DNA of 64,000 bases from Candidatus Limnocylindrales bacterium (GTDB lineage: Bacteria; Desulfobacterota; Binatia; UBA1149; CAITLU01). Below the pieces are notes generated by a model. That model was given only the letters and a program-made list of their open reading frames with translations. It made no database searches and was not told the origin of the DNA. The stretch is from positions 1-64,000 of the forward strand of contig DATNBU010000032.1 of the NCBI GenBank assembly GCA_035571835.1, read 5' to 3'. Both the position numbers and the translations under genes were made by a program. Below, in pieces: positions 1 through 43,734 of this stretch; the stretch's first letter is position 1, and each line of letters begins with the position of its first letter.

Positions 1-1587
1 CTCGAAGCACGGACGATTCGAGATCTCGCAGACGCCGCCGTCGTTGTCCTGGCACGTCGTGCTGCCCGCCGCGCAGTTCAGGTACGGCTTGGTCGAACAC
101 TCGCCCTGGGTCGTCGTCGCGCAGGCCTCTTCGACGCGCTCGCCGTTCACGACGCTGCCGCCGCAGATGTTCTTATCCTTGCTGCAGTCGTTCGGCTTCT
201 GCTGCGCGAAGTTCTGCGACTGCTCGCCGCCGGTGCCGACCTTGCAGGTCTGGCCGCTTGGGCAGTCGCCGTTCTCGAAGCACGGCAGATCGGGGTTGTC
301 GTTGCAGAAGCCGCAATTGCACCAGTAGCCGCAGGTGATCGGCTGGTCCGGCGCTTCGGCGCACGTTCCCTTGCCGGTGCACTGCGTGTTGCTCGTGCAG
401 GCCGTCGCCGGATCGAGCGTGCAGCGCTTGCAGTCGGCGTTGGTCGCGCAGACCGGGTCGCCGGCTGCGACCTTGTCGATGCACTTCGGAGTGCTGCCCG
501 GAGTGAGGGGGTTGTTCGGCTTGAAGCTCGAGTTGCCGCACGGCAGCTGCGCGGTCTTGCTCGACGTTCCGGTGGTGACTTCTGCGAACCGGATTGCGAG
601 ACCTGCGCCGGACACGTTGTCACCGATAGACGGGGGGCAGTCGAATGACGTGCCGCCGAAGACCGGGCTGACGCCGTTGGTCGTGCAGGGCTGACCGTCG
701 TTCGGTCCGCCGCCGCACGTGAACTGGGCGCCGACTGTCGGCCCGTCATCGACGGTGCCACAGGTCGGACATGGCTTGTCGAGCTGAATGCCGAGGTACA
801 CGCGCGAACGGAGGTTCGCCGACGTGTTGGCTTCGCCGGTCGACGAATCGGCTGTTCCAGTCAGTGCGCTCGCGAACGTGCTGATGACGCACACGGGTGT
901 GCCGCCGGACGACAGAGGAAGCGGCGGGCCGAACATGAATACACACGGCTGTCCCGACGGGCAGTCCGCGTTCACCGTGCACGAGCTCAGGCTGTTGAAA
1001 CAGTTCTTCGGCTGCGTCGGGCCGGTGATCTCGCAGCTCGTATCGCTGTTGCAGTCGCAGGTGGGTACGCAGTCGTTGCCGCTGCCACAGTCTGCATCGA
1101 CCTCGCAAACGGCATGCTCGCCGTTCGAACAGCGCCGCACCGTATCGAAAGTGATCGAGGCGCCCAGGATGAGGTCGGAGTTATGTGCAACGCCGGTCCA
1201 TCCGGAATCGAGATCGGATCCGGTGCGCGACTGGAACTCGCCGGAGGTACACGCTGGGCCTGTCGGCGTGTTGAAACATGCAGGGGGGCAATTCAGCGTC
1301 ACCGGCTGGCCGACGGCTTTTTTCAGGATGATCAGCGCGTCAGCAGTGGTCGTGCCGCCGGCGTTGTTCACGTCGCAGGCGCACTCTTTGGTGTCGCAAT
1401 TGGTCGGTTGGCCGACAGCGGACTTCAAAACGAGCAGCGCGTCCCCGGTGGTGGGATTGGCGCCGGTCGACAGCGGCTGTCCGCACTTTGTAATTGTAAT
1501 TTGGGCCGTCGCGGCTGCGGGCGCGAGCATCACGAGGCTGCTGATCAGAAGACTGGTGACAACACTTGAAATCGATGGTTTGGTCAT
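1..1587 (-). CDS. Cys-rich secreted protein with dockerin-like repeats (3' end outside window)
   Basis: The frame is open for 529 codons from the ATG at 1587 to the window edge without a stop, so the C-terminus is missing. A signal peptide covers about residues 1-28 (hydrophobic LLISSLVMLAPAAATA). Two dockerin-like repeats follow at about 40-60 and 70-93: the second has the spacing DVNNAGGTTTAD followed by ALIILKKAVG, the first is degenerate. The rest is Cys-rich and shares four blocks with the genes at 4721-8230 and 8518-10830: a GW-x-G-x-A-HN block, PLPLSSGGTPVC, KPCPTCG, and DCPPSIG followed by SGAGLAI. The part after the core has C-x2-GKG-x-C type disulfide motifs. I saw no CxxCH heme motif. 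The start is supported by GAGAGG seven bases upstream. Function unknown; probably exported and disulfide-stabilised. It is the only one of the three paralogs in which I see dockerin-like repeats. Confidence 0.85.
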   Translation of the reverse strand, partial: MTKPSISSVVTSLLISSLVMLAPAAATAQITITKCGQPLSTGANPTTGDALLVLKSAVGQPTNCDTKECACDVNNAGGTTTADALIILKKAVGQPVTLNCPPACFNTPTGPACTSGEFQSRTGSDLDSGWTGVAHNSDLILGASITFDTVRRCSNGEHAVCEVDADCGSGNDCVPTCDCNSDTSCEITGPTQPKNCFNSLSSCTVNADCPSGQPCVFMFGPPLPLSSGGTPVCVISTFASALTGTADSSTGEANTSANLRSRVYLGIQLDKPCPTCGTVDDGPTVGAQFTCGGGPNDGQPCTTNGVSPVFGGTSFDCPPSIGDNVSGAGLAIRFAEVTTGTSSKTAQLPCGNSSFKPNNPLTPGSTPKCIDKVAAGDPVCATNADCKRCTLDPATACTSNTQCTGKGTCAEAPDQPITCGYWCNCGFCNDNPDLPCFENGDCPSGQTCKVGTGGEQSQNFAQQKPNDCSKDKNICGGSVVNGERVEEACATTTQGECSTKPYLNCAAGSTTCQDNDGGVCEISNRPCFE

Positions 1588-1614
1588 TTTTTTCCTCTCG
1601 GTCTGAATCTAGTC

Positions 1615-1637
1615 AAAAAACCAGACGCGAGTCTAGG
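1615..1637 (-). terminator. short hairpin plus T-run just upstream of the Cys-rich gene
   Basis: Read on the minus strand, an AGAC/GTCT stem with flanking C-G pairs and a TCGC loop is followed directly by TTTTTT. The stem is short, so this is a weak terminator or a leader attenuator. It lies only about 28 bases before the start codon at 1587. Confidence 0.45.
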
Positions 1638-1645
1638 TGAAATAG

Positions 1646-1680
1646 AAAAAGGGGGAGTCCGTGAGTGGACTCCCCCTCGT
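1646..1680 (-). terminator. intrinsic terminator of the two-domain cohesin-like lipoprotein gene
   Basis: A 10-bp perfect stem (GGGGGAGTCC at 1651-1660 with GGACTCCCCC at 1667-1676) is followed on the minus strand by TTTTTC. It lies about 40 bases beyond the stop codon at 1716. Confidence 0.85.
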
Positions 1681-1715
1681 TCTTGCCTGGGTCGTGCCGT
1701 GAACCCTTTGCGGGT

Positions 1716-3197
1716 TTACGGAATGGCCGTCACACTTGTCACCGAGATCGCAGCGTCGATCGGTGCCCCATCCGGGTCGGTCGCATCGTCGATCACGACC
1801 GGGAAGTCGGCCGGCACCGGAGTGCCACCTTCTGCGTTGAACGTGCAGCGCACGAGATCGATCGGTGCGGTCACCGGGCTCAGCGAAATGATGCCGAGGT
1901 TCAGTGTCGTGGTTGCCTCGATGTCGTTCGGGGCAAACAGCGCGCCGCTGACCAGACTCGTGCAGTTCACTGCAGCTCCTGCTCCAGCGAAACCGCCCGG
2001 CGCAGCCGAGTAGTCCGTGTGGAACTGGAGTGCGCCCGCCGCGGCACTTGCCGAAGTGAGACGGAACAGCACGCTGAAGTTCGTCGAACCGACAATCGTC
2101 GTGGTGACACCCGGCTCCGTCGTGGTCGTCTGACCTTCGACGGTCGTGGTCGTCACGGGATTACCTTCGCACTCGATCGGCGAAACGATGACCACATCCG
2201 GCGTCGGCTCGACCGGATTCAGATCCGGATCCGAAGCTTCGGTAACCGCGATCGTGAAGTCGGCAGGCGTCGGCTGCACGCTCGCAGTGAACGTACAATC
2301 GGCAACGTTCACCGGTCCGGTGAAGCCGTCGAGGCTGATGATGCCTGCCGTCAGCGTCTCTTCCGCATCCTTGTCGTTGAAGGATGCGAGCGAGCCCTGG
2401 ATCAGCGACGCGCACTCGACGTTGCCGCCCGTGCCAAGGAAGCTGCCCGGTGCGTCGCCGTAATCGACGTCGAACTGCAGAGATCCCAGCGTGGCGTCGT
2501 CCGCGAGGCGGAGGAACACGTGGCAGGTCAGACCGCCTCCAATCAGCGTCGTGGTCGTGGTCGACCCCGTCGTGCTGGTCGTGTTCGTCGTCGAAGTCGA
2601 AGTCGACGAGATCGTGTTCGACGTCGTGCTGGTCGTCGTCTCCGGCCCGCAGATCGGGTCGTTGGAGCAGTTCGGATCGTCGCAGTCGATGAGACCGTTG
2701 TCGTCATCGTCGACGCCGTTGTCGCAATCTTCGCACGAGGTCGGATCGGCGTTCCTGCTGATGCAGACCGGAGGCGTATTGTCGCAGCCCGGTGCATTCG
2801 TGCAGGCGCACTGACCTTCGGCCGTCTGCTGCAGCTCGGAGATGTCGACATCTTCGAAGAGGCAGCTGAAGAGATTGGACACACCGTTGATCGTGCAGCC
2901 GGAAACCGTGACGCGGAGAACGCCGCCGCCCGGCTCCGAGAAAGAAATGTTACATCCCGCCGCATCGAGGGCGGAGGCAAGCTCACACTGGAGATTGCCA
3001 TCGTTGTCGCGCTCGATGACCGCATCGGCGTCGGCAAGATTGACTTCGACCACTACGCTGTTGCAGCTCCCGCCCCCGTTGATGCCGAAGAACAACTTGA
3101 TCAGGTCGGACCCGCTTCCGTTGTTACAGCCGCCCAACACGCCGGCGAGCGTCAGGGCCACAGCGCCCATCCCGATTTTACGAAACCACGTATTCAT
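1716..3197 (-). CDS. scaffold-like lipoprotein with two cohesin-like domains on Thr-rich linkers
   Basis: 493 aa. The lipoprotein signal ends in LGGC, with Cys24 as the predicted lipidation site. Residues about 45-120 form a small Cys-containing domain that may be a divergent copy of the later ones. Residues 158-183 carry an Asp-rich MopE-like motif (NGVDDDDNGLIDC). A Ser/Thr linker at 184-218 leads to domain A (about 223-343). A second Thr-rich linker (347-372) leads to domain B (about 373-493). A and B align with each other (GSLQFDVDYGDAPG against GALQFHTDYSAAPG; CTFTA against CTFNA) and with the lipoprotein at 43252-43734. The beta-strand pattern and linker layout resemble cohesin modules of scaffoldins; that name is a family-level inference. 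GGAG lies eight bases before the ATG. It has its own promoter and terminator, so it is probably monocistronic and anchored on the outer membrane. Confidence 0.8.
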   Translation of the reverse strand: MNTWFRKIGMGAVALTLAGVLGGCNNGSGSDLIKLFFGINGGGSCNSVVVEVNLADADAVIERDNDGNLQCELASALDAAGCNISFSEPGGGVLRVTVSGCTINGVSNLFSCLFEDVDISELQQTAEGQCACTNAPGCDNTPPVCISRNADPTSCEDCDNGVDDDDNGLIDCDDPNCSNDPICGPETTTSTTSNTISSTSTSTTNTTSTTGSTTTTTLIGGGLTCHVFLRLADDATLGSLQFDVDYGDAPGSFLGTGGNVECASLIQGSLASFNDKDAEETLTAGIISLDGFTGPVNVADCTFTASVQPTPADFTIAVTEASDPDLNPVEPTPDVVIVSPIECEGNPVTTTTVEGQTTTTEPGVTTTIVGSTNFSVLFRLTSASAAAGALQFHTDYSAAPGGFAGAGAAVNCTSLVSGALFAPNDIEATTTLNLGIISLSPVTAPIDLVRCTFNAEGGTPVPADFPVVIDDATDPDGAPIDAAISVTSVTAIP

Positions 3198-3301
3198 TAC
3201 AGGAACTCCTTCTTTGAGAATCGAGCGGACGTAGCGCCTGAGCGACGCCGGAATGACCTCTCCCGCGCCGACTAACCAGATAAAAAAGGCTACGGCGCTA
3301 T

Positions 3302-3331
3302 GCTTTAGCCGGGGCGCTCGTCTGTTGTCAA
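3302..3331 (-). promoter_or_regulatory. sigma70-like promoter of the cohesin-like lipoprotein gene
   Basis: On the minus strand TTGACA (3331-3326) is followed after 18 bases by TAAAGC (3307-3302). The ATG is at 3197, giving a leader of about 100 bases. The same TTGAC-N18-TA layout precedes the genes starting at 8230 and 10830. Confidence 0.5.
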
Positions 3332-3368
3332 GCTAGCCGGCCCGCATCAAAGAGCAGTTGAGGCCAAG

Positions 3369-3398
3369 TTGCATAACGTGAAAAACACCGCATATGAC
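3369..3398 (+). promoter_or_regulatory. possible promoter of the PDZ-like exported protein
   Basis: TTGCAT at 3369-3374, an 18-base spacer and TATGAC at 3393-3398 lie about 90 bases before the ATG at 3488. Both hexamers are only partial matches to consensus. Confidence 0.3.
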
Positions 3399-3487
3399 CA
3401 ATCACCCTTTTCCGGGTTCGTACGGGCATTCCCTTCCGGGCGGGCCCGCGGAAAAGGCCCCCTTCAATTCTGTCCCGAGGAGAAACC

Positions 3488-4609
3488 ATGTTGTTTCCTG
3501 CTGCATTCTTAACAATTGAAGCATCCCATCGGCCCTCAGCAGCCGGCGCGAATCGACGAATCGCGCTCGGCGCTCTGGCAATCACCCTTCTCACATCGAG
3601 CCCTGCCCCGGCCTTCTTCCAGCAAACGAAGCTCGAGGGTCCGATCGGAACGGACATCGGGGGGGTTTGGGTGTCCGTGCAGAACGTGATGCCGGAGTTC
3701 CGGATCAGCTATCCCAAGCCGGCAAACGGAAAGGCGGTCCCGTTCACAGTCGAGCCGATCCCCGAGGAACTGGCTGCGGTCATGGGGCCGAAGCTGGCCG
3801 GCGTGTCGGTGGTCAGCTGCGACCACAGCACCTTCTGTGCCGAAAACGGCATCGTGACCGGGGATGTAGTGATCCGGATCAATTCCGCCGATATCACCGA
3901 TGTGGCGAGCTTCGAGAAGGCCGTCGAGAATCTGCCCCCGCAGATTCTGCTGTCGATAAGGCGTCCGGCGCTCCGGATGGTCACCGCGCGGCTGCTGAAG
4001 ATCAAGTACACGAATCAGGGCAAGGAAACCCAGGAGGGGAGCGAACAGCAGGAAGACCTCGACGTGCAGGTCCTGGACGTTGCATTGCCGTTCGACGCTG
4101 CCATCGAAAGCAGCCGCCAGAAGCACACGCCGTTCGAGCCATCGGCGGCCGACCTGGAGACGATCAAGGCGAAGTGGTCCAGCTTCCCTCTGTCCAACCC
4201 GCTCCGCTACATGACCGGCGAGCATCGGTTCGTGGCGAAATCCAACTTCGACCAGTCGCTCGAGGCCGACAAGCTGCTCGCCAATGCGAAGTACGCGCTG
4301 ATCATGAGCATGGAAGGCAATCCGGTGCAGGGCGGCGGAAAGGTGATCGACGTGTACGGGATCGAATCGCTCAGTGAGAAGTCGATGGAAGGTGCCTATG
4401 TGTCGGTCACGATGGCGAGCGCGCCGTTTCCCATCAACATCGAGTTCAAAGGTCGATTCAAGATGCAGCGCCTGGCCGACTGGTCGGACGAGGACGACAA
4501 GCTCCGCATGAAGAATGCGGCCAACCGGAAGCCGGCCGAGGACCTCAGCAAGTTCAAGCTGGATCCGGATGTTCCGCCGTCGGCGAAGAAGCCTGCCGAT
4601 GCGAAATAG
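3488..4609 (+). CDS. exported PDZ-like domain protein
   Basis: 373 aa. The N-terminus has basic residues (ANRR) and a hydrophobic stretch (IALGALAITLLTSS) ending at APA, so it is probably exported by Sec. Residues about 75-170 look like a PDZ fold: a loop GVSVVSCDHSTF, then GIVTGDVVIRINSADITD and a closing strand with LSIRRPALRMVTARL. This would normally bind a C-terminal peptide or organise a complex. The C-terminal 200 residues match nothing I recognise. The tail is Lys/Pro-rich. There is no protease domain, so it is not an HtrA. The start is well supported by GAGGAG six bases before the ATG. The gene ends at a strong bidirectional terminator shared with the convergent Cys-rich gene. Confidence 0.8.
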   Translation: MLFPAAFLTIEASHRPSAAGANRRIALGALAITLLTSSPAPAFFQQTKLEGPIGTDIGGVWVSVQNVMPEFRISYPKPANGKAVPFTVEPIPEELAAVMGPKLAGVSVVSCDHSTFCAENGIVTGDVVIRINSADITDVASFEKAVENLPPQILLSIRRPALRMVTARLLKIKYTNQGKETQEGSEQQEDLDVQVLDVALPFDAAIESSRQKHTPFEPSAADLETIKAKWSSFPLSNPLRYMTGEHRFVAKSNFDQSLEADKLLANAKYALIMSMEGNPVQGGGKVIDVYGIESLSEKSMEGAYVSVTMASAPFPINIEFKGRFKMQRLADWSDEDDKLRMKNAANRKPAEDLSKFKLDPDVPPSAKKPADAK

Positions 4610-4656
4610 TTAACGGCCCGAATCGCTGCTGCGCAATCATCCGCGGTGCGCAGCAA

Positions 4657-4698
4657 CGAAAAAGCCCGCGCCTCCTTTCGGAGACGCGGGCTTTTTGT
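4657..4698. terminator. bidirectional intrinsic terminator
   Basis: AAAAAGCCCGCG and CGCGGGCTTTTT form a long stem around a CCTCCTTTCGGAGA region that pairs further. A and T runs on both sides let it terminate both the PDZ gene (stop 4609) and the convergent Cys-rich gene (stop 4721). Confidence 0.92.
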
Positions 4699-4720
4699 TG
4701 CGCTCGATGCGCCTGCAGCT

Positions 4721-7700
4721 TTACGGGAGCGGCAGGTGATCGAAGTTGGTGGTCACGTATCCCGGCTGGCGGATGCGTCCCGGGCCCGGCAGTCCGGCGG
4801 TGCTGTTGACCGCGTCGTTGTCACTCGCCGGGATGCAGAAGGATGCCACCGACAACGTATTGGTGGGGTCACCCTTTCCGTTGAAGATGTCGCCACCTTC
4901 GGTTGCGCCATCGTTGATGAAGCAGTTCAGGATGTCGGCGCGGCAGAATCCGGCTCCGGGGTTGGCCGGATTTCCATTGATGTCCGTCGCGCAGTCCTTC
5001 TGCGTGTTCACGTTGCCCGGGGCGCAGTTCTTGAACGTCCAGCCCGGTCCGTCGCAGTGGTAGAAGTTGCCCTGCGCGCACGCGCCTTCTTCCGGATCGT
5101 CCGGCACGCACGTGCCGCCGCCGATGCACTTCTCGTCGATGCCGCAGCGCTGGCCGTCGCGGTCGCCGCCGTTGCAGGTACCTCTCGGCACGCACATCGG
5201 CGTGCAGAGGCCGGCCGGACATGCATCGTCACATGTCGCTCCGCCGCTGCAGGTGGCCGACGTTATACAACTGGCCGGTTTGCAGAGACCCTCGCTGCAC
5301 GGCGCTCCGCCGACGGTGCACGACGCAGCAGCCGGGCAGTCGGCGCCAGGCCCGAAGCAGGCCGAATCCTGCGTGCAGATCGCGCCGGCATTGGTTCCGC
5401 CCGTGCAGCGACGGATGCTGCACGATCCCGTGCTTCCATTGCCGCAGACGCGCGGATTGTGGCCGCAGTTTCCGCTGTTGCAGTCACTGTCTTCGTCGCA
5501 CGCGCGTCCTCCGCCATGGTTGCCGCCCGGGCAGGTTCCGCCACCCGTGCAATCGGCATTCGATGTACAGTCGGCGCCCGGATTGGTTCCGAGCACGCAG
5601 GCGTCGATGCACTGGGTCTGGAACTCGCACGCCTTGCCGTAGTACGCCGGATCCGGATCGTTGCAGGCCGCGTCGCAGCCGTTCGGCTTGTTGCGCGTGT
5701 TGCCTCCGCCGCGCACGCAGTTGCAGTCGTAGTTCTGGAAACCCTGCGCGTCACACGCGCCCGGCTCCTCGTTCTGGACCGGCTCGCTGGTCAGCGGTGT
5801 CCAGCTGATTGCCAGGCCGGTGCCGGAAATGTTCGATCCGCTGTACGGGCAGTCCGACGACGTGGTGCCGAAGTCGGTGTACGCTTCGATGCGGCAGCTT
5901 TGGTTCGGCTTGGTTCCGCCGCCGCACTGGAGCGAGAGCACGCAGGCGTGCGTGTCTCCGTGGGTCGCGCACTCCGGAGAATCGGCTCCGCTGCACACCC
6001 CGGTCGAACAGTCGTCGTCGAAGCGGCAAGCCTTGCCGGTGCAGAGCTCGCCGAGACAATCGGTGTTCGACGTGCACGAGTTGCCGGCGTTCTTGCCGAA
6101 CCGGCATTCGAGCGCCGGATCGGTGGTGCAGGTGCCGTTGCACAGGAAGCTCGAAGGCTGCGAACCGGTATCCGTGATGTCGCCGTCGCAGAACCCGCCG
6201 CAAACCGGACACGGCCGCGAGTTCAGCTCATGGCCGCCCGCAAGGAAGATCACCGAACGCAGCTCGTAGTTGATCGCGTGCTCGCCGGTGATGATGTTGC
6301 GGGTTCCCGTGATGTTCGTGAAGAACTGGCTGTCGATGCACACCGACGTGCCGTTCGCCGAAAGCGGCAGCGGCGCGCCGTTACGGAGCACGACGCAGTC
6401 GTCGCTCTTGTCGCAGATTCCGCGGCAACGCTCGCCTTCGGCGCAGTCGGACTGCTTTGCGCAGGTTCCGTTCGCCTGGAGCGGGTCGGTGCTTCCTTCC
6501 GGATAGCACCGTGCCGAGCAATCGGTGGTCGTCGCGCAGCGGCCGCCGCCCGTGCAGTCGGCATTGTTGTCGCAGACGGTTTCGTCGTTGCTGCCGTTGA
6601 TGCAGACCAGCTTGGAACATGCGCCGCCGGCGCCGCATCCCGCATCGGCGGTGCAGCCGATCCCGGGGGTGGGCCCACCGAGGCACGCGCCGCTTCCGCT
6701 GCATGAGCCGCCCGGGCAGTCGTCGGCGTCGTTGCAGCGATCGCCATCATTGAGGCCTTCCATGCAGCGCCGCATACTTCCGGTGCAGAAATCGCCTGCG
6801 TTGACCGTGAACTGATCACAGGTAGCGCAGTCGGCATCGGAGTGAGCGTTGTCGTTGTTACCGACCTCGTCGCAGGTGGTGTGGTCGCCAATGCGGCGGC
6901 CGCAGCGCGGCGCAGTCTCGGAGGACACGTTGCAGACCGGATCCGTGCTGTGACCAGCGACGCACGTCGCCTTGTCCACGGTGTCGAACTGGTCGCAGTC
7001 GCAGTTGGTCACTTCGCTGACGAAGCCCGCAAGATCGGTGACCTTGTTGTTGTGCGACTTGCCGGACCAGCCGTTGTCGAGGTCAGCCGCGAAACCGTCG
7101 GCATAGCCGTGAGCGCGGGCGATCGTCGCACATGTGCACTCGAAGACGTCGCCCGGCGGAAGGCAGGCGCCCGGACAGGCGCTGTCGTCGGTGCCGTCGC
7201 ACTCTTCGCCGTTCAGGGCGAACGGGTTCGCCTTCTGGTTGACGACGTTGTCGCCGCACCCGGCAAGCGATGCGCCCGGATAGGCAGCGTTGATCACGCT
7301 AACCGGCGCGTAGGTGCGGGTGCCCGGCGGATCGATCGAGTAGGACGCTTCACCGACCATCTGCGAGAGGCAGTCCTGGGCCCCGGCAACGGTCGTGACG
7401 CCGCCGCCGCAAACGTCGAGCTCGGCGATGTCGCCATCGGTGCACTTCGACGCGATGCCGTCACGGAACTTGGTGATCGTCGATGCGATCGAGTCTGCGG
7501 TTTTCTCGTCGTCGGTCGCGCACCGGTTGACGAGGATCGTCGCGTTGTCCGCGGTGAGCTGCGACAGGCGGCACTTCGAGAGCGTCCCTGCGAGCTTCGT
7601 GATCGTCTTCGGCACCGACTTCTCGAGCGACTCGAGACAGGCCGTTGCCGTCGCGGAAAGCGCGGGCGCTCCATCCAGCGTTCCGAAAAGGTTCGTCACC

Positions 7701-8230
7701 ACGTCCTCGGCGACGACTTCGGCAGCACCGGAATCCGGAGTCACCATGCATGCACTGAAGTCTTCGGGCTCGAACATGTCGTGGCCGAGGATCGACGGGC
7801 AGAGCGGCCCGGGAAAGCCCATGTTCGGGTATTCGAACTCGCCATCGCCGGTGCAGAGCTCGGGAATCGAGCCGTTCGGCGGGCAAACCGTTGTCGCGAT
7901 GCACGACAGTGCGGTGGGGCCTGAGCATGAGCTCTGGCATTTCTTTGCAATGCCCTTCGTCGCGCTGTCCCGCGATTTCTGGATCGCGTCGGTCATCTCC
8001 TGATCAGGGCACGACACGGTCTCGTTGTCGTAGAGTCTCTCCGTGCAGGCAGCCGTCGCCTTGGTGATGTTGGCGATGTGCTTGCTGATCGACTTCGTCA
8101 TCGTCTTGAAGCAGTTGCCCTCGAGCTTCGAGTTGACAGCAGCTCCCCACGAATTGCCCGAGCCTGCTGCGATCAGCAGGACCGTGGCCAGCGCGAGCGT
8201 CGCTCCTCTGGCCGTGTTCCCTGATTTCAT
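4721..8230 (-). CDS. large Cys-rich secreted protein of the four-block paralog family
   Basis: 1169 aa from the ATG at 8230, preceded by GGAGGAGGAG; an upstream in-frame start at 8296 has no comparable site. A signal peptide ends near SWGAA. The N-terminal third is helical with paired Cys (FKTMTKSISKHIANITKATAA; KKCQSSC). Around 325-368 is a Myxococcus-type disulfide repeat (CGDN...GEECDG...CPGAC). Four core blocks follow: GWSGKSHN near 387, PLPLSANGTSVC near 620, RPCPVCG near 672, and DCPYSGSNISGTGLAI near 793. Between and after them lie many repeats of the form C-x-GG-x-NAG-x-x-C-x5-C-x-GG-x-C. The paralogs are at 1-1587 and 8518-10830. I see no catalytic motif or heme site. It is probably a surface or extracellular disulfide-rich structural or binding protein. 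Own promoter (8379-8408) and terminator. Confidence 0.85.
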   Translation of the reverse strand: MKSGNTARGATLALATVLLIAAGSGNSWGAAVNSKLEGNCFKTMTKSISKHIANITKATAACTERLYDNETVSCPDQEMTDAIQKSRDSATKGIAKKCQSSCSGPTALSCIATTVCPPNGSIPELCTGDGEFEYPNMGFPGPLCPSILGHDMFEPEDFSACMVTPDSGAAEVVAEDVVTNLFGTLDGAPALSATATACLESLEKSVPKTITKLAGTLSKCRLSQLTADNATILVNRCATDDEKTADSIASTITKFRDGIASKCTDGDIAELDVCGGGVTTVAGAQDCLSQMVGEASYSIDPPGTRTYAPVSVINAAYPGASLAGCGDNVVNQKANPFALNGEECDGTDDSACPGACLPPGDVFECTCATIARAHGYADGFAADLDNGWSGKSHNNKVTDLAGFVSEVTNCDCDQFDTVDKATCVAGHSTDPVCNVSSETAPRCGRRIGDHTTCDEVGNNDNAHSDADCATCDQFTVNAGDFCTGSMRRCMEGLNDGDRCNDADDCPGGSCSGSGACLGGPTPGIGCTADAGCGAGGACSKLVCINGSNDETVCDNNADCTGGGRCATTTDCSARCYPEGSTDPLQANGTCAKQSDCAEGERCRGICDKSDDCVVLRNGAPLPLSANGTSVCIDSQFFTNITGTRNIITGEHAINYELRSVIFLAGGHELNSRPCPVCGGFCDGDITDTGSQPSSFLCNGTCTTDPALECRFGKNAGNSCTSNTDCLGELCTGKACRFDDDCSTGVCSGADSPECATHGDTHACVLSLQCGGGTKPNQSCRIEAYTDFGTTSSDCPYSGSNISGTGLAISWTPLTSEPVQNEEPGACDAQGFQNYDCNCVRGGGNTRNKPNGCDAACNDPDPAYYGKACEFQTQCIDACVLGTNPGADCTSNADCTGGGTCPGGNHGGGRACDEDSDCNSGNCGHNPRVCGNGSTGSCSIRRCTGGTNAGAICTQDSACFGPGADCPAAASCTVGGAPCSEGLCKPASCITSATCSGGATCDDACPAGLCTPMCVPRGTCNGGDRDGQRCGIDEKCIGGGTCVPDDPEEGACAQGNFYHCDGPGWTFKNCAPGNVNTQKDCATDINGNPANPGAGFCRADILNCFINDGATEGGDIFNGKGDPTNTLSVASFCIPASDNDAVNSTAGLPGPGRIRQPGYVTTNFDHLPLP

Positions 8231-8378
8231 GATTCTCCTCCTCCTGGTTCTTCTGATGCTGGGCGAACTTTCGATAGATCGGGTGCGCGCGGCCACTGTG
8301 TCTCCCCTCGAGTCCGCCGGGCAGTTGCCTGCGCGAATAGGTCGGTGGTGAGGCGAACGGCGCCTTACTGCGGGGGCT

Positions 8379-8408
8379 AACCTACGGACCCGGACCGCTT
8401 TAAGTCAA
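8379..8408 (-). promoter_or_regulatory. sigma70-like promoter of the 1169-aa Cys-rich gene
   Basis: Minus-strand TTGACT (8408-8403), an 18-base spacer and TAGGTT (8384-8379) lie about 150 bases upstream of the ATG at 8230. It is nearly identical in layout to the promoter of the paralog at 10830. Confidence 0.55.
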
Positions 8409-8448
8409 GGTGGTAACTCAGTGGCCGCGCTCACCGCTGATACGACAA

Positions 8449-8477
8449 GGCCCCGGATGCTTGAGACATCCGGGGCC
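8449..8477 (-). terminator. strong GC-rich hairpin after the 770-aa Cys-rich gene
   Basis: A perfect 11-bp stem, GGCCCCGGATG (8449-8459) with CATCCGGGGCC (8467-8477), surrounds a 7-base loop, 41 bases past the stop at 8518. The following minus-strand sequence is only TTGTCGT, so termination may be Rho-assisted or the hairpin may protect the mRNA end. Confidence 0.6.
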
Positions 8478-8517
8478 CTCCCGTTCGTGACGCGGTGCGC
8501 TGCGTCGCTTGTTGCTG

Positions 8518-10830
8518 TTAGTACCGCTTCTCGACCACCGAGTCGGTCTGAACGACCGCCGGTCCCGGCGAGCCGGTCGTATCGTTCACGCTGCCGTTGC
8601 CAGAGGGCGGCAGGCAGAACGTTCCGACGAGGATCGGCCGTTCGGTATCCGGCGTACCCGTGAGCGCGATCGTATTGAGGAAGCAGCTGCGCACGACCTG
8701 GATCGAGCAGTTTCCGCAGTCGTTCCCCTCGCAGACCCAGTCATCGGGGTTGATCGAATCGGAAATCTGCACGTCGCAGCTCGCATCGTTGGCACACTTG
8801 ATGATGCCTCTGCCGTCGGCCGTGAGTGCGCCGTCGCAGTACTTCTCGTAGTCGGGCGTGCCCGAGCACAGTCCGCGGTCGGTCTGGCCGCCGGTCGGCA
8901 CGCAGATGCCGTCCGAGCAGTTGTTCGGCAACCGGGGTGCGCCCGGAGCCGCCGCCGCACAGTCATCTGAACCGTTGATCGTATCGTCGTCGGCCAGATC
9001 GCAGTCGCTGTCCGTGTCGCACGAGTCCGTTCCGATGCCCGAACCGCACACGCCGCAGAAGCAGTCGAGAGACTGGTTCGGCGATTCGCACGGATCCTGG
9101 GCGGTCTTCGACACGGATCCCGTCGACAGCGGCAGGTTGATCTTGAGCGAGCCGATCGCCTTGCCCGGATCGGGCGGGCAATCGAGGCTGTTGCCCTCGG
9201 TCGGGTCGCTCGGATCGAGGCTGAGCCTGGCGTACGTCAGGTCGAAGCCCTGTACGTCGCACGCGCCGCCGTCATTCAGGCCGCCGAGGCACGTGCCGTC
9301 CCGTTTGTCGTCCTGGGCTTTGATGTCGAAGCGGCAGATCGGGCACGGACGCGTGAGGTTGTCGCCGAAGTGAACGTCCGTGTTCAGTTTGACCGACAGG
9401 AAGCTCGTTCCCGCGTCCGGGTCGACGGTGCCGGAGACGTCCTGCGCGAGCGTGTTCATCGAGCAGGTCGGCGTTCCGCCGGCGGACACGGCCAGCGGTG
9501 GTCCGAGGAAGTATGCGCACTCGTTGTTCGAGGCCTGCGAGTCCGCGTTGGTCGAACACAAAGTGTCCGTGCCGAACACGTTCGTACAAGGGATGTGCGA
9601 GTCCGTGCGGCAGCGCGTGAACGCCTGGTACTGCGGATTGTCGTAGCTGATGCCGTCCACCGTGCAGGCCGTCTGGCACGTATTGCCGTTGCTGCAGTCG
9701 GTATTGTCCGTGCACGCGCCGCCCGGGCTGGTGCCGCCCGCACAGATCGGCGTGGCGCATGCTCCCATCGGTCCGCCGCAGGTGATGTCGCCGGACAGCG
9801 TGTAGCTGTCGACGATGTCGACGTTATGGGCCAGGCCCTTCCAGCCGACCGACAGCGTCGTTCCGGACTTGTTTCCGAGAACCGAGCAGGTCCCGCCGCC
9901 GGTTTCACCGACGCTGCATCCGCCGAGAATCGTCGTGCGGATCGCGCGCGGGCAGATGTCGATCGTGAACTCGTAGGTCGAGTCGTACGCGTCGTCCTCG
10001 CTGTCGGCCCACGCGGTGTCGTTGCAGGACTTGAGCGTGGCCAGGTCGGCTCCGCAGCTGTCGAGCGCGGCGAAATTGACGCCCGTGCAGCTGTCCGTCA
10101 GGGCCTGTTCGGCCTTGGCGAGTGCGCTTGCGACTTTGCCCTTCGAATCCGGGCCGTCCTGGCATGCGGCGACCTCGTTGTCGGCCGGGTCATCCGCTAG
10201 CTCGTCGGCGGCACTCTGGCAGGCGGTATCGTCCTTGATCGCGGTCAGGAAATACTTCGAGTAGTTCTTCGCGATCGCTGAGTGGCAGGCCTGGTCGGCG
10301 TCGTTCAGCGTGTTTTGCGGGGGATCCCCGAGCGTGGCAGTTCCGAGGTCGCTGACTATGTCCGTAAGCATGCAGTTCTGGCAGGCCGCGACGTCACCCA
10401 TCGTGACGATCGGATCTGCGACCGCGGTGTTGTCGGGTCGCAGGCAGCCCGGGATCGGGCACGAGACGTACCACTCCTTCCCCGTCGTGCTCGCGGCCGT
10501 CAGCTCGTTTGCGCCGGTCTTGCACTTCTTGGCCAGGCCGTCGACCGCTTTCGCCTTGGCCGACGCGAACTTGCCCTTCGTGTCGGCGGCCACCGGATCG
10601 TTGCAGTCCACGGCCGTCAGCGCGGGATCGCCGGCATCCTTCGCCTTGTGACAGTCGGAAATCGTCTTCAAGGCGGTCTTCATTACCTTCTGATAGCTTT
10701 TGGCTGTCGCGTTCCGGCATTTCACGCCGGCCGCGGACAGTGGCGCAGAGACCTGCGCGGATGCCAGCGAGGCAGACAGCAGCAAAGCCAGAGCTGCCAC
10801 GGAGCTCGCCGTAGTTTTCCGAATGTTCAT
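8518..10830 (-). CDS. Cys-rich secreted protein of the four-block paralog family
   Basis: 770 aa from the ATG at 10830, preceded by AGGAGGAGGAGA. A signal peptide ends at ASAQ near residue 26. The N-terminal half has helical segments bounded by Cys (VKCRNATAKSYQKVMKTAL; DSKGKVASALAKAEQALTDSC), as in the 1169-aa paralog. The core blocks are in the same order: VGWKGLAHN, GPPLAVSAGGTPTC, RPCPICR, and DCPPDPGKAIGSL. There are fewer Cys-rich insertions than in the 1169-aa protein; one carries CAGGTSPGGACTDNTDC. The protein ends near a NCSIQVVRSCFLN segment, which matches the paralog's DILNCFIND end. I see no enzyme signature. It stands alone between its own promoter (10938-10967) and a hairpin. 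Extracellular location is inferred from the signal peptide and Cys content. Confidence 0.85.
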   Translation of the reverse strand: MNIRKTTASSVAALALLLSASLASAQVSAPLSAAGVKCRNATAKSYQKVMKTALKTISDCHKAKDAGDPALTAVDCNDPVAADTKGKFASAKAKAVDGLAKKCKTGANELTAASTTGKEWYVSCPIPGCLRPDNTAVADPIVTMGDVAACQNCMLTDIVSDLGTATLGDPPQNTLNDADQACHSAIAKNYSKYFLTAIKDDTACQSAADELADDPADNEVAACQDGPDSKGKVASALAKAEQALTDSCTGVNFAALDSCGADLATLKSCNDTAWADSEDDAYDSTYEFTIDICPRAIRTTILGGCSVGETGGGTCSVLGNKSGTTLSVGWKGLAHNVDIVDSYTLSGDITCGGPMGACATPICAGGTSPGGACTDNTDCSNGNTCQTACTVDGISYDNPQYQAFTRCRTDSHIPCTNVFGTDTLCSTNADSQASNNECAYFLGPPLAVSAGGTPTCSMNTLAQDVSGTVDPDAGTSFLSVKLNTDVHFGDNLTRPCPICRFDIKAQDDKRDGTCLGGLNDGGACDVQGFDLTYARLSLDPSDPTEGNSLDCPPDPGKAIGSLKINLPLSTGSVSKTAQDPCESPNQSLDCFCGVCGSGIGTDSCDTDSDCDLADDDTINGSDDCAAAAPGAPRLPNNCSDGICVPTGGQTDRGLCSGTPDYEKYCDGALTADGRGIIKCANDASCDVQISDSINPDDWVCEGNDCGNCSIQVVRSCFLNTIALTGTPDTERPILVGTFCLPPSGNGSVNDTTGSPGPAVVQTDSVVEKRY

Positions 10831-10937
10831 TCTCCTCCTCCTATTGAAAGCCAACTAACGTTCCTGGGCGGGTCAAAAAGACTGAACGAGGCTCCCTTCG
10901 TCCGTTGCGGAACGAAATCGACCCCGAGTCGGCGGGT

Positions 10938-11091: not shown

Positions 11092-11562
11092 GTGCGACCG
11101 ATTCCAAAGCGATTTTTGAGCGCGACGACTGTTTCGATGTTCTCGATAGCTGCCGCAAGCCTGGTGCTTGCGAGTGCGCAACCCGCATTGGCGGCGCCGC
11201 AACTGACGTGTCGCAAGGTCGTCGCCGACATGACGAGCGGCGAAGGCAGCAACTCCGGGGCCGGGTCACGCGTAAAGTGCGCCTTGGGGGAGATGCTGAC
11301 GGGGGGCGTGTGTTATCCGGAGACGCGACCTGAGGCCGACGGGACGTGCCAGACGTCCGCGATGGGCATCATCCAGACGATCGTCGACCATCCCGGCACC
11401 ACGGAGGAAGCATTCTTCACGTGCCTGCAGACGGGTGGAAGCGAGTGTCCGGTGCAGGCGCGCACCAGGGCGATGGCCATCTGCTGCAAGATCAAGGACG
11501 ACGCTGCGCCGGCCGGCGCTCCCGCTGCGGGTCAGAACGAAGCACCGGCCGTCAAAAAGTAA
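11092..11562 (+). CDS. small Cys-containing exported protein
   Basis: 156 aa. The start is a GTG with GGAGG seven bases upstream. A signal peptide runs through FSIAAASLVLASAQPALAA. The mature part has eight Cys (LTCRKV, VKCALGEM, GGVCYPE, GTCQTS, FTCLQTGGSECPV, AICCKIK), consistent with a compact disulfide-bonded fold, and a short Ala/Pro tail. I do not recognise a family. It is divergent from the 770-aa Cys-rich gene and ends at a strong terminator, so it is monocistronic. Location and Cys content suggest it acts in the periplasm or outside the cell with the neighbouring proteins, but this is only contextual. Confidence 0.75.
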   Translation: MRPIPKRFLSATTVSMFSIAAASLVLASAQPALAAPQLTCRKVVADMTSGEGSNSGAGSRVKCALGEMLTGGVCYPETRPEADGTCQTSAMGIIQTIVDHPGTTEEAFFTCLQTGGSECPVQARTRAMAICCKIKDDAAPAGAPAAGQNEAPAVKK

Positions 11563-11644: not shown

Positions 11645-13708
11645 TCAGAACTGCCAGGTGAACTGGATGCTCGTCTCCGAGCGCCCGCGGCTTCCGCCGC
11701 CGAGGAACCACGGATCGAAGATCTGGCCGTTGTCGGGATCGTTCCTGTTCTTGTGCCCGTCGTACGGATCCCAGGGGGCGCCGACCCAGATCAGGCGCGT
11801 CGTCAGGTTGAACGCGAGATCCGGCGTGTAGAACCAGTCGAAGCCAAGCGCGATTTCCTGCGAGTAGCTGTTGACCGGATCGAGCAGGTAAATCAGCGCG
11901 GGCACGAGCGTGCCGCCGCGATAGAAACCGAGTGCGGCGAACGTCATCAGCATTTCCCACTGATGGATCGTGTCGCGGCCTTTGCCGCTCGGGTTCTGCA
12001 GCTTCGGAAGATCGAGCGGACCGACGAAGCCCGTCTGCTCGCCGGGGAACAGGAACTGCTGGTCCTGCGGATCGCCGACCGCGTTGCTGACGCCGCCGCA
12101 CTGTCCGCCGCGCGGATCGTTCGGATCGGACGTGTATCCGATGAAGTCCGGGTTCCTCGAGCCGTCGGCTTTGAACTCGGGCTGGTTGGCGATCGCGCAG
12201 CGCCGCCGTTCCATGTCGATGATGTAGTGCCAGAAGAGCTGGCCGGAAAGGAAGAACGTCGTCTTCTTGTTGAGCCAGCGGATCCACGTCGGGCGATCGA
12301 ACGCGAGCATGCCCTTCCACATGTTGCGCTTGGTGATGCCCGGCAGCAGCGTCGGGCCGTCCGGCGAGCGGCCGAACTCGGCAACCTGCTTGTCGCCGTC
12401 GTAGAACGGAAGGTCGAAGTCGATGATGGTCTCGACGCGCCACACGGTCTGCGTCCACTCGCCTTCGAACCAGTTGAACGAGAAGCCGACGGTGTGGATG
12501 TACGGTGCGAAGTACTCCGCGCAGAATTCGCTCTTTCCGAGATTGGAGAACAGCGGGTCACGGCCGGGAGCGGTGCCGACGAAACCGCAGTACTCTTCCG
12601 CGCTCAGCGTCGCCGGATTGCCGTTGTCGTCGTGCACCTTGAAGGTTTCGTCCGACGGAATGCCGCGGATGATCGCGGTCGGCGAACCGTCCGGAGCGAA
12701 GCGCTGGTACAGGTAGTTGACCGTCCATTCGGTCGAGCCCGCGAGGAAGTGGAAACGAACGCCGAACTGGCTGTTCTCGATCGGATCCTTCGCGTAGTTG
12801 CCCTGGTTGAAGAGCTTGGTGTCGTTGAGCAGGCCTGCGCAGGTCGCGTCCTCGCCGCTGTCGCTGACGGCGTTCGCGCAGAACGACTGGTGCGTCTGGA
12901 ACACGCCGCTGTTGTTCGCGTTGTAGAGAGGATCGAGCAGGCGTGCGCCCCAGGGGCGCGGCAGGAACGCGATCTTGCCCGGGTTCCAGTCGAAGCCCGG
13001 TGTCCAGTACGCCTCGAGGAAGGTCTGCGACAGCGGTCCGATCTGCTTGAAGTCCCACAGGCCCTTCACCATGAAGAACGGCTGGCGCAGCTCATCGAAT
13101 CCGAATCCCGGCGGCGGCAACTCCTGGAAGAAGTGCCAGCTCAGGTCGAGCGTATTGGCGCGGTCGAGCATTCGGAAGCCGTCGCTCTCTCCCCACACGA
13201 CCTGCTGCTTTCCGACTCGTAGCGTGAGCGGAAGGCTCTTGAAGTAGATGTCCATGTAGGCTTCGCGGATGAGGTTGTTGAACTTGTACTCATCGCGCTG
13301 GTCTTTCGGGATGCTCGACAGGCTGGCGTTGCGGGCGGCGGCCTGGTCGGTCAGGCCGATCTTGTCGCCGGAGATGTCGAAACGCTCGATTTGGCCAGGC
13401 GTCAGGTCGTAGACCGAGTCGTACACGCCGCGGTACAGCACGAACAGGTCGGAACGCTCGATGAACGGGATGTTGTACTTGCCGAACGCTTTGCCGCGCT
13501 GCAGCCACTTGTACTCCAGGCGGAGCTTGAGGCTGTTGCGCTGCATGATGAACGCCCATTTGTCGATGTCGGGATGACGGAAGATGTTCGTCGTCCGCAG
13601 ATGTCCGCCGAGGTCCACGCTCGCGCTGCGATAGATGGCGTGAGCGTACGACGGTGCGAGCACCGTCAAGCAGACCGCTACCTTCAGGAAGGTCGATAGC
13701 CTTTTCAT
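11645..13708 (-). CDS. DUF1302-family outer-membrane beta-barrel protein
   Basis: 687 aa. The signal peptide ends after SYAHA. The body has repeated amphipathic, aromatic-rich strands typical of porin-like barrels, and ends in Phe (SIQFTWQF), as outer-membrane proteins do. Features seen in DUF1302 proteins include RVGKQQVVWGESDGFRMLD, DPLYNANNSG and FNWFEGEWTQTVWRVET. Relatives are usually 550-700 aa and often sit beside DUF1329 and RND-type (MMPL) exporters in organisms handling hydrophobic substrates; none of those partners is present here. GAGAGGG precedes the ATG. It converges on the small exported protein with a shared terminator. A role in uptake or export of hydrophobic compounds is inference from the family. 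Confidence 0.85.
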   Translation of the reverse strand: MKRLSTFLKVAVCLTVLAPSYAHAIYRSASVDLGGHLRTTNIFRHPDIDKWAFIMQRNSLKLRLEYKWLQRGKAFGKYNIPFIERSDLFVLYRGVYDSVYDLTPGQIERFDISGDKIGLTDQAAARNASLSSIPKDQRDEYKFNNLIREAYMDIYFKSLPLTLRVGKQQVVWGESDGFRMLDRANTLDLSWHFFQELPPPGFGFDELRQPFFMVKGLWDFKQIGPLSQTFLEAYWTPGFDWNPGKIAFLPRPWGARLLDPLYNANNSGVFQTHQSFCANAVSDSGEDATCAGLLNDTKLFNQGNYAKDPIENSQFGVRFHFLAGSTEWTVNYLYQRFAPDGSPTAIIRGIPSDETFKVHDDNGNPATLSAEEYCGFVGTAPGRDPLFSNLGKSEFCAEYFAPYIHTVGFSFNWFEGEWTQTVWRVETIIDFDLPFYDGDKQVAEFGRSPDGPTLLPGITKRNMWKGMLAFDRPTWIRWLNKKTTFFLSGQLFWHYIIDMERRRCAIANQPEFKADGSRNPDFIGYTSDPNDPRGGQCGGVSNAVGDPQDQQFLFPGEQTGFVGPLDLPKLQNPSGKGRDTIHQWEMLMTFAALGFYRGGTLVPALIYLLDPVNSYSQEIALGFDWFYTPDLAFNLTTRLIWVGAPWDPYDGHKNRNDPDNGQIFDPWFLGGGSRGRSETSIQFTWQF

Positions 13709-13920: not shown

Positions 13921-14016
13921 GGAGAGGGAACGGGTCCGGTGGCCCGGCCGGTCTTCAAAACCGTGATGTCGGTCTCAACGACCGGCGGAGGGTTCGACTC
14001 CCTCCCTTCTCCGCCA
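13921..14016 (+). tRNA. selC: tRNA-Sec (anticodon UCA)
   Basis: The 96-base gene folds with the marks of bacterial tRNA-Sec. The 8-bp acceptor stem pairs GGAGAGGG with CCTTCTCC (one G-U). The D stem has 6 bp (CGGGTC with GGCCCG) and a 4-base CGGT loop. The anticodon loop CTTCAAA carries TCA. The variable arm is long (GTCGGTC, TCAAC, GACCGGC). The T arm is GAGGG-TTCGACT-CCCTC, giving the 8+5 acceptor/T arrangement. GCCA is encoded at the 3' end. It delivers selenocysteine to in-frame UGA codons together with SelA, SelB and SelD, none of which is in the window. It overlaps in antisense the last 42 bp of the glycosyltransferase gene at 13975-15621. Confidence 0.95.
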
Positions 14017-15683: not shown

Positions 15684-17090
15684 TTACGGAACGAACGCGA
15701 GCGTGAACGGTGCCTGTCCGAGCGAAATCGGCCTGGCGGTGATCTCGGAGATGTCGCTCCCGCCGGCAACACGGAAGATGCGAATCCCGGAAGGATCGTC
15801 GTTGTCTTCGCCGCGATAGGCCACCCACAGCTCGCCGGTCTCGGTCATTTCGATGTCGCTGATCAGCGCTTGGCTCGACAGCAGCACCTTCTTGATCTTG
15901 CGCTGCACGAGATCGATCTCGACCACCGAGTTGGATTCCTGGTCGGCGATGATCGCGAACGCGCGGCCGGTGCCGACGATGACGAAGTCGAAGATGTTCG
16001 CATGGATGTCCGCGCCGGTGAGCAGGACGCCGGCGGACTGCATGGTCGACGGGTCGATGGCTTCGATTGCGCCGTCCTCGAGGTTGCTGCCGTCGCCCGT
16101 GTCGTCCGGAATTCGTCCCGGACCGCCGACAAAGATGCGATTCTGAAACTCGTCGTACGGAAGTCCCTTGGTGGCGGCGAACGGGTTCGCGAACGACAGT
16201 GCAATGCTTCCTTTCAGCGTGTCGGTGGCAGTGTCGATCACGGCGATGCGGCCCGCGCCATGCGTCGGTGCATGATTGTTGTCGAGCAGCTGCATGCTCA
16301 CGAACAGGTCCGTGCCGACCATCACCATCTGGTCCATCTCGGGAATGCCGTCGCCATCGAAGCCGGACAGGTCGATGTGGCCCTTGATCAGCGTTTTGCA
16401 CGCCGGGTCGACCTGCGAATGCAGCAGCACGTCCGGATCGATGACGAACAGACTGTCACCGCGGTATGGCGTGACGTAACCCTTGCTCCCCGACACCAGC
16501 AGCACATCCTGCGGATTCGCGCCGCCCTCGTCGCGGATTCCGCCATTGACGCTGCATTCCTTGACGTTCGGAAGCGACGGTTTGTCGACGTCGAGAAACT
16601 GAAGCGTATTCCAGGGCGTCCGGTTGATGACGATCGGAACTCCCGATGGCGCGCGAACGACGGCATCGGTGCTGAGCGCGCCGAGACGGACCGAGACGCT
16701 TCTCTTCGTGACGTCCTCGGGACCGAGCGCGACCACCGCAAGGCCGGCAGAGCTGAAATCGATCGGCGCGGTCGTCACCACGGCGCGAGTCGCCGTGGCG
16801 CCGAGGCACGACGGGATCACGCCCTCGACCGACTTGCGAAGAATGTCGAGCGCATCACTCGCCGTGAGCTTGCCGTCGCCTTGCGGCGAGGGCCATACGT
16901 CTCCGCGCCGGTCGTACTTCGAGGCGACGGCGTAGCGCAGCGTCTGCAGGCCGTCACTGGCCTTGAAGAAACCGTCGCCGGTGACGTCGCCGCAAAGCGC
17001 CGCGTGCGCAGGCGCGGCGCCGATGGCGAGCCAGCACCACAGCGCGGCAGCGCACGCACGCTCAGTGCGCATCATTCGAATGTTGCGCAT
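15684..17090 (-). CDS. exported repeat protein with two N-terminal dockerin-like repeats
   Basis: 468 aa from the ATG at 17090, which has AGAGG at good spacing; the in-frame ATG at 17099 lacks room for one. A signal peptide ends at PAHA (about residue 30). Two dockerin-like calcium-loop repeats follow: CGDVTGDGFFKASDGLQTL (33-51) and a second at about 64-88 with QGDGKLTASDALDIL. The first keeps Asp at loop positions 1, 5 and 12. The remaining 380 residues look like a beta-propeller of LVIVD/YVTN type (GYVTPYRGDSLFVIDPD; ALISDIEMTETGELWVAY). It overlaps the 3' end of the TonB receptor gene by 29 bp, so the two are co-translated. It may be a surface binding or sensing partner of that receptor; this is inferred from context. 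Confidence 0.8.
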   Translation of the reverse strand: MRNIRMMRTERACAAALWCWLAIGAAPAHAALCGDVTGDGFFKASDGLQTLRYAVASKYDRRGDVWPSPQGDGKLTASDALDILRKSVEGVIPSCLGATATRAVVTTAPIDFSSAGLAVVALGPEDVTKRSVSVRLGALSTDAVVRAPSGVPIVINRTPWNTLQFLDVDKPSLPNVKECSVNGGIRDEGGANPQDVLLVSGSKGYVTPYRGDSLFVIDPDVLLHSQVDPACKTLIKGHIDLSGFDGDGIPEMDQMVMVGTDLFVSMQLLDNNHAPTHGAGRIAVIDTATDTLKGSIALSFANPFAATKGLPYDEFQNRIFVGGPGRIPDDTGDGSNLEDGAIEAIDPSTMQSAGVLLTGADIHANIFDFVIVGTGRAFAIIADQESNSVVEIDLVQRKIKKVLLSSQALISDIEMTETGELWVAYRGEDNDDPSGIRIFRVAGGSDISEITARPISLGQAPFTLAFVP

Positions 17091-19167: not shown

Positions 19168-19306
19168 CGGGATGGAGAAGTTGCTGTCGAAGGTTCGTGG
19201 TCGCGTACGCAAAGCCGGCGAACCGTAGGGATGCGGGGCAATGGAGTCAACAAGCGCGACGTGCCTCCGCTTTGACAGCCGTCAACCGGCAACCTAAGAG
19301 CCCGCC

Positions 19307-43202: not shown

Positions 43203-43251
43203 TACGTTTCGGCCTAGAATCGCCGCTGTTCCCCTACGGAGGTCCTTTTTG

Positions 43252-43734
43252 ATGCATCGCAACCTTACGATTGCCGCGCTCGCCCTCGTTCCGCTCCTGT
43301 TGACGGGTTGCGAGAAGAAGACCGAGACCGCTACGGCTCCGGCGGCCATTCCCGCCCCACCGGCCACGCCTGCACCGGCATCTGCCGGCGCGCGAACCGT
43401 CGCATTCGAGCTCGAGAGCACGTCGGCCGTCGGCGCGCTCCAGATCGACATTGCATACACAGGTGACGGCCGTTTCGTCGGCGACGCAGACGCGGTTGCC
43501 TGCGAAACCAAGGTTCCCGAGGCGCTCAGCAGCTACAATCACATCACCGGTGACAAGCTGCTTCGCGCCGCGTTCGTTGCGGTCAAAGGGTTCACCGGTC
43601 CGGTCCGCTTCAGCGAGTGCAAGTTCCAGGGCAATCCGAAGCCGGCGGATTTCACCGTCACGATCAAGGATTCGTCGAGCCCCGACCTTGGCGAGCTCAA
43701 GCCTCCTCCGTCGATCAAGGTGGTCGTGAACTGA
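43252..43734 (+). CDS. single-domain cohesin-like lipoprotein
   Basis: 160 aa; the ATG at 43252 has GGAGG nine bases upstream (a TTG three bases before it is less likely). The lipobox is LLTGC with Cys20. A short Ala/Pro linker (about 25-45) leads to one domain (about 46-160) homologous to the two domains of the lipoprotein at 1716-3197: LQIDIAYTGDGRFVGD, GFTGPVRFSECKF and PKPADFTVTIKDSSSPDLG match LQFDVDYGDAPGSFLG, GFTGPVNVADCTF and PTPADFTIAVTEASDPDLN. It is probably an anchored single binding module on the cell surface. It lies between the ROK kinase and ispG, two bases from the latter, and is likely co-transcribed with them though functionally unrelated. Confidence 0.82.
   Translation: MHRNLTIAALALVPLLLTGCEKKTETATAPAAIPAPPATPAPASAGARTVAFELESTSAVGALQIDIAYTGDGRFVGDADAVACETKVPEALSSYNHITGDKLLRAAFVAVKGFTGPVRFSECKFQGNPKPADFTVTIKDSSSPDLGELKPPPSIKVVVN

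Follow-up and report, generated by a model that had tools for sequence, protein, structure and literature searches.

Cohesin-fold lipoproteins, dockerin-like modules, and a clade-restricted family of cysteine-rich secreted proteins at a locus of an uncultured Binatia bacterium

Dockerin and cohesin proteins of the non-cellulosomal type are extensive in anaerobic methanotrophic (ANME) archaea, where their role is unclear (PMC9012536). A survey of cellulosomes across 305,693 genomes used CDD and Pfam profiles, required dockerin-glycoside hydrolases, and excluded metagenome assemblies (PMC11557425). Here, we report a locus of a Candidatus Limnocylindrales bacterium (GTDB class Binatia, order UBA1149; assembly GCA_035571835.1, 46 contigs, 5.46 Mb), which encodes three related Cys-rich proteins (A, C, and D) sharing a region termed CORE, and a lipoprotein (B) carrying two cohesin-fold modules. 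The window analyzed covers 64 kb of contig C32 (DATNBU010000032.1), counted from the first base of that contig. Owing to its profiles, its glycoside hydrolase requirement, and its exclusion of metagenome assemblies, the survey would miss this system, and a literature search found no paper linking dockerins with Binatota or Binatia. With somewhat less than even confidence, we suggest that this uncultured lineage builds a large extracellular plug-and-socket network, in which ~100+ dockerin-bearing surface proteins, among them multihaem cytochromes, beta-propellers, and the disulfide-locked CORE family, would sit on cohesin-fold lipoproteins, and that it has gone unseen since the sockets escape Pfam.

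The preliminary description of this DNA, made from the sequence alone, had taken A, C, and D as a secreted, Cys-rich paralog family without a named match, built on four blocks in the same order as a fixed scaffold. The block pattern was matched once in each protein (residues 129 to 319 of A, 409 to 818 of C, and 337 to 561 of D), and the first two blocks appeared together in 0 of 20,000 composition-preserving shuffles for each of the three. Pairwise BLASTP (A-D, E=6e-28; A-C, 1e-17; D-C, 4e-6) extended the homology past the blocks and, together with profile searches, bore out the family; searches with CORE of Pfam, NCBIfam, and the PDB sequences returned nothing. The scaffold stood in part: the blocks are real, and they are not isolated, lying instead in one continuous Cys-rich region of ~400 residues with ~24 invariant Cys (alignment of 24 relatives; profile A1, 16 sequences, 412 positions). 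Its end is strongly conserved (CFLDPI...FCxPPTSN...N...GLPGPG); this C-terminal block had been overlooked, as had the dockerin-like N-terminus of A and lipoprotein B with its two cohesin-fold modules. For the contig scan, a closer set of six CORE sequences was used, the 16-row alignment being too diverse.

The fetched loci were scanned with hidden Markov models (HMMs) for CORE, for a helical Cys-bounded N-terminal module (HEL), and for a dockerin-like doublet (DOC). Protein D (8518 to 10854, minus strand; HMMs) combines helical Cys repeats (HEL, two repeats, 9961 to 10734; HMM and AlphaFold2 helices, predicted local distance difference test [pLDDT] mostly ~90) with CORE (8524 to 9873; alignment A1 and CORE profile, 436 bits), and its probable true start is the ATG at 10830, in agreement with the first coordinates given. 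Protein C (4721 to 8296, minus strand; probable true start, ATG near 8230) is a divergent CORE protein with 108 Cys and many CxGG-type inserts; it scored 40 + 25 bits, and its orthologs, which have HEL and CORE matches, scored higher. Protein A (1 to 1587, minus strand) has a signal peptide, a dockerin-like doublet, and an incomplete CORE (1 to 1230; 220 bits); it lacks its C-terminus because the contig begins inside the open reading frame (ORF). Full-length orthologs of A were found in five loci (L077, L080, L074, L075, and L083). The helical N-terminus said to be common to two of the proteins is thus that of C and D, A having the doublet at this place. HEL followed by CORE was found in D and other ORFs (11 in the set from this genome) and, weakly, in C orthologs, and DOC followed by CORE in A and in paralogs at L062, L069, L070, and L137; at L072, DOC is placed last rather than ahead of CORE.

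The variable Cys-rich inserts noted earlier were recovered as well (CxGG-type motifs: two in D, one in A, five in C, and 1 to 10 among C orthologs). The number of Cys from the domain start to the end was even in 32 of 32 intact relatives whose domain start could be fixed (range, 44 to 84; one-sided P of ~2e-10 assuming independent members, which orthologs are not). Such a count suits an exported protein in which every Cys would be paired and inserts would be gained or lost in even-Cys units. AlphaFold2, run on mature D with 16 sequences, modelled the helical N-terminus well and gave a beta-rich middle of CORE (residues ~364 to 545 of mature D; pLDDT mostly 60 to 90), so the idea that the blocks form one domain found support for the middle of CORE only. 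A PhoU-like arrangement of the helical part of D was rejected (Z of 8.6, too weak for a helical bundle). A, C, and D passed no cut-off of TIGR02232, PF13948, or TIGR04201 (Myxo_Cys_RPT; cut-off, 25 bits), A reaching 18.1 bits for the last and C and D not being listed; one A ortholog ends in a TIGR02232 repeat, which also occurs in some CORE paralogs. Elsewhere in the class, a 1,212-residue frame of family f11 (G019:C11:40016-42553) contains a tandem of three partial matches to CORE (profile positions ~52 to 235), which suggests that the middle of CORE may be a repeatable unit.

Protein B (1716 to 3197, minus strand) is a predicted lipoprotein (lipobox VLGGC at residues 20 to 24, with Cys 24) with a Cys-rich N-terminal part, Thr-rich linkers, and two related modules of ~120 residues each (module 1, 2181 to 2537; module 2, 1728 to 2090, 156 bits with the cohesin-like profile), over which Pfam gave no match. 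Module 1, modelled in isolation, is all-beta (AlphaFold2 pLDDT, 92.5). Foldseek of this model against the PDB gave no match at E<=0.001; its best rows were cohesins 3kcp_B (E=0.011) and 2xdh (E=0.018), with a probability of 1.00. VIA-align gave a Z of 11.1 (root mean square deviation, 2.2; 103 residues) against 2xdh, the non-cellulosomal cohesin of Archaeoglobus fulgidus, and 9.8 to 10.1 against type I cohesins, and cohesins made up most of the best 50 rows. The predicted structure agrees with the nine-stranded jelly roll of ~140 residues that defines a cohesin. The window holds a second cohesin-fold lipoprotein (43249 to 43731, plus strand; 137 bits), small, with one module and lipobox LLTGC, which lies directly upstream of ispG (GcpE) and a prolyl-tRNA synthetase-like gene. 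Just past the window (C32:66491-67321), a further ORF carries a cohesin-fold module and a dockerin-like doublet.

The doublet of A (1288 to 1485, minus strand; 105 bits with profile A6) has a canonical second calcium loop (CDVNxxGxxxxxDAL). When profile A6, built from this doublet and its relatives, was compared with the PDB, dockerins were the best matches (E=3e-5), with similarity across the two F-hand repeats of type I dockerins. Of the two loops of the form DxNxDGxxxxxD, A has the second, and both are present in near-canonical form in a secreted protein encoded farther along the locus (15684 to 17099, minus strand; conserved in relatives), which has an N-terminal doublet (16806 to 16994) and a weak beta-propeller repeat match. 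Curated PF00404 was not reported for A, and the module is termed dockerin-like because that cut-off is not reached; in this genome, PF00404 was found at 37 places, ~26 of them above the curated cut-off.

Both module types are expanded in this genome. Profile A6 gave 138 dockerin-like matches (109 of at least 150 bases), and the cohesin-like profile (A4) gave 35 matches in 25 loci. A dockerin-like match lay within 1.5 kb at 14 of the 25 cohesin loci, versus ~2.2 expected at uniform density, and 11 ORFs bear both modules. Cohesin-like modules numbered at most 2 to 3 per ORF among the ORFs seen, and 55 of 101 dockerin-like copies were at the extreme C-terminus. Pfam searches of 86 dockerin ORFs identified beta-propellers (RCC1, FG-GAP, BNR, and PD40), LamG, DUF4215, disintegrin-like Cys repeats, multihaem cytochromes (two MtrC/MtrF-like), Lcl_C, a secretin, and a PETase-like hydrolase; the 25 commonest of the 50 families included no glycoside hydrolase. 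Two adjoining genes of one locus (L128:1378-3192, plus strand, and L128:233-1303, minus strand) encode dockerin-bearing multihaem cytochromes with six and four CXXCH motifs, respectively, one of them MtrC/MtrF-like and cut by the locus end; their sequences suggest that they may be docked electron-transfer proteins. At L121:439-1782 (minus strand), a dockerin-like doublet is found at the N-terminus of a secretin (PF00263).

CORE was present in all 13 genomes of the order and in 29 of 148 genomes of the class, the latter including six of family f9 and sporadic members of three other families. In a 297-genome sample of the phylum, CORE matches came only from class members, and no relatives were found on viral contigs; named contigs with CORE relatives were mostly from Deltaproteobacteria metagenome-assembled genomes, with two from "Candidatus Binatia." This genome had 40 CORE matches, fragments included (order-level search), and 21 distinct CORE ORFs in the fetched loci. 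Among class genomes at least 90% complete (n = 109), cohesin-like modules were present in 13 and dockerin-like modules in 20; every cohesin-like carrier also had dockerin-like modules, and the cohesin-like module was limited to the order and family f9.

The surrounding gene order was recovered, whole or in part, in syntenic loci fetched from the order. It runs from a TonB-dependent receptor, which ends the conserved neighborhood (17062 to 19212, minus strand; PF00593, E=1.7e-30; PF07715), through the dockerin-bearing propeller-like protein, a PMT-type glycosyltransferase, a DUF1302 protein (11645 to 13708, minus strand; PF06980, E=2.8e-26), and a small secreted protein divergently oriented from D (11092 to 11562, plus strand; same position in nine other loci) to D, and onward to C, a PDZ-like domain protein (3488 to 4609, plus strand; PDZ_2, E=0.001, under the curated cut-off), B, and A. 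The adjacency of B and A is kept in relatives across families.

We consider the chances about even that these genes encode a cohesin-dockerin surface system of the non-cellulosomal type, with B as the docking site of A and with disulfide-locked CORE proteins as its coat or binding subunits. The lipoprotein B would probably be held in the outer membrane with its two cohesin-fold sockets turned to the outside, and A would plug into a B-type socket by its N-terminal doublet. In C and D, the helical module would replace the dockerin, and these proteins would be attached or assembled another way. A, C, and D would be exported proteins with every Cys in a disulfide, members of a family confined to one clade and built on one CORE region, to which insert modules are added, or from which they are lost, in even-cysteine steps; as rigid subunits, they would most likely have their role in a coat or in binding (adhesion or ligand capture). 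Several results weigh against this proposal. Pfam cohesin PF00963 had 0 matches genome-wide and 0 in 12 B-type modules, which is why we speak of a cohesin-fold module and not of a PF00963 member, and hhalign of the B modules with three CipA cohesins gave no match, probably due to a cohesin profile of three similar members only. The first calcium loop of A is degenerate and Cys-bounded. C and D are without a dockerin, so the model leaves the holding of most CORE proteins unexplained. The C-terminal part of CORE was poorly modelled, and Foldseek of the whole D model, a search dominated by its helical part, returned no match at E<=0.001.

That the four blocks are a chance or low-complexity likeness among Cys-rich proteins has next to no probability: Cys-rich repeats do inflate similarity, and the D-C BLASTP output is largely short Cys-rich matches, but the shuffles and the profile searches (up to 497 bits, with 412 positions aligned almost end to end in many genomes) rule out an origin by chance or composition. 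A more serious contender, which we nonetheless regard as doubtful, is that no binding takes place between A and B, the CORE proteins being simply secreted and Cys-rich and the two module types being relics or having other roles, such as a calcium-dependent stalk, an export or retention tag, or a carbohydrate-binding jelly roll. A shared fold is no proof of function, the module unrecognised by PF00963 and the degenerate loop of A would suit such a history, and the preference of dockerin-like copies for the extreme C-terminus also fits a tag. Against it stand the joint expansion of both module types in the order, their close spacing far above expectation, the 11 ORFs with both, and the retention of the B-A pair across families.

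The neighborhood also admits a reading as an uptake machine, in which the TonB-dependent receptor, the DUF1302 protein, and the dockerin-bearing propeller-like protein import a ligand that A, C, and D capture at the surface. The recurrence of receptor, propeller-like protein, glycosyltransferase, and DUF1302 gene beside D and C in relatives speaks for it; a conserved neighborhood differs from co-function, however, ~18 further CORE paralogs are encoded at other places in the genome, and there is no known ligand, and we think this reading unlikely. Many paralogs, secretion, disulfide-richness, and variable inserts are known from toxins, inhibitors, and effectors, and the CORE proteins, with just these features, might act on other organisms as toxins, protease inhibitors, or contact-dependent effectors. 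This seems to us quite improbable: in Pfam and NCBIfam scans, the CORE proteins matched no family of toxins or inhibitors, no partner gene resembling an immunity gene was recognised, and the synteny of the D-C locus across the order is a better fit to a housekeeping envelope role than to an arms race.

A selenocysteine tRNA gene lies at 13921 to 14016 (plus strand), flanked by the genes for the DUF1302 protein and the PMT-type glycosyltransferase, and a stretch 76% identical to it occurs at the matching position in two further loci (L076 and L079). Selenocysteine readthrough of CORE genes, raised by this tRNA, was considered and set aside, as stop codons are absent from most CORE matches, and the few matches that include one seem to extend beyond the end of a shorter homolog.

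The findings suggest that uncultured soil and water bacteria may hold a large, overlooked system for displaying proteins on the cell surface. If the proposed cohesin-dockerin system is real, such assembly would not be mainly a matter of cellulose degradation in Firmicutes with scattered relics elsewhere, since a Gram-negative lineage would use it for surface display in general and on the scale of a cellulosome, and profile-based surveys would undercount cohesins. The CORE family would then provide a new kind of building block with every Cys in a disulfide, its even-cysteine growth being directly testable, and the orthogonal socket and plug sequences could serve protein engineering.

Cohesin-dockerin assembly as such is already known; what appears new, judged by sequence, is the CORE family, which matches nothing known. 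Its nearest known counterparts are the short disulfide repeats of TIGR02232 (myxo_disulf_rpt), PF13948 (DUF4215), and TIGR04201, but CORE spans ~400 residues and has a distinct conserved arrangement of Cys. With the cellulosome of the Acetivibrio (Clostridium) thermocellum type, the system shares cohesin-fold sockets and >100 dockerin-like plugs, whereas here the sockets number no more than 2 to 3 per protein in the ORFs seen and the 25 commonest Pfam families of the 86 dockerin proteins include no glycoside hydrolase. There is also a close resemblance to the non-cellulosomal systems of A. fulgidus (2xdh) and ANME archaea (PMC9012536), in the cohesin fold, in proteins with both modules, in many dockerins on diverse partners, and in that a large scaffoldin was not seen; unlike those, this one belongs to a Gram-negative bacterial class, its cohesin modules are often on lipoproteins and lie under Pfam detection in sequence, and some of its dockerins are fused to the new CORE.

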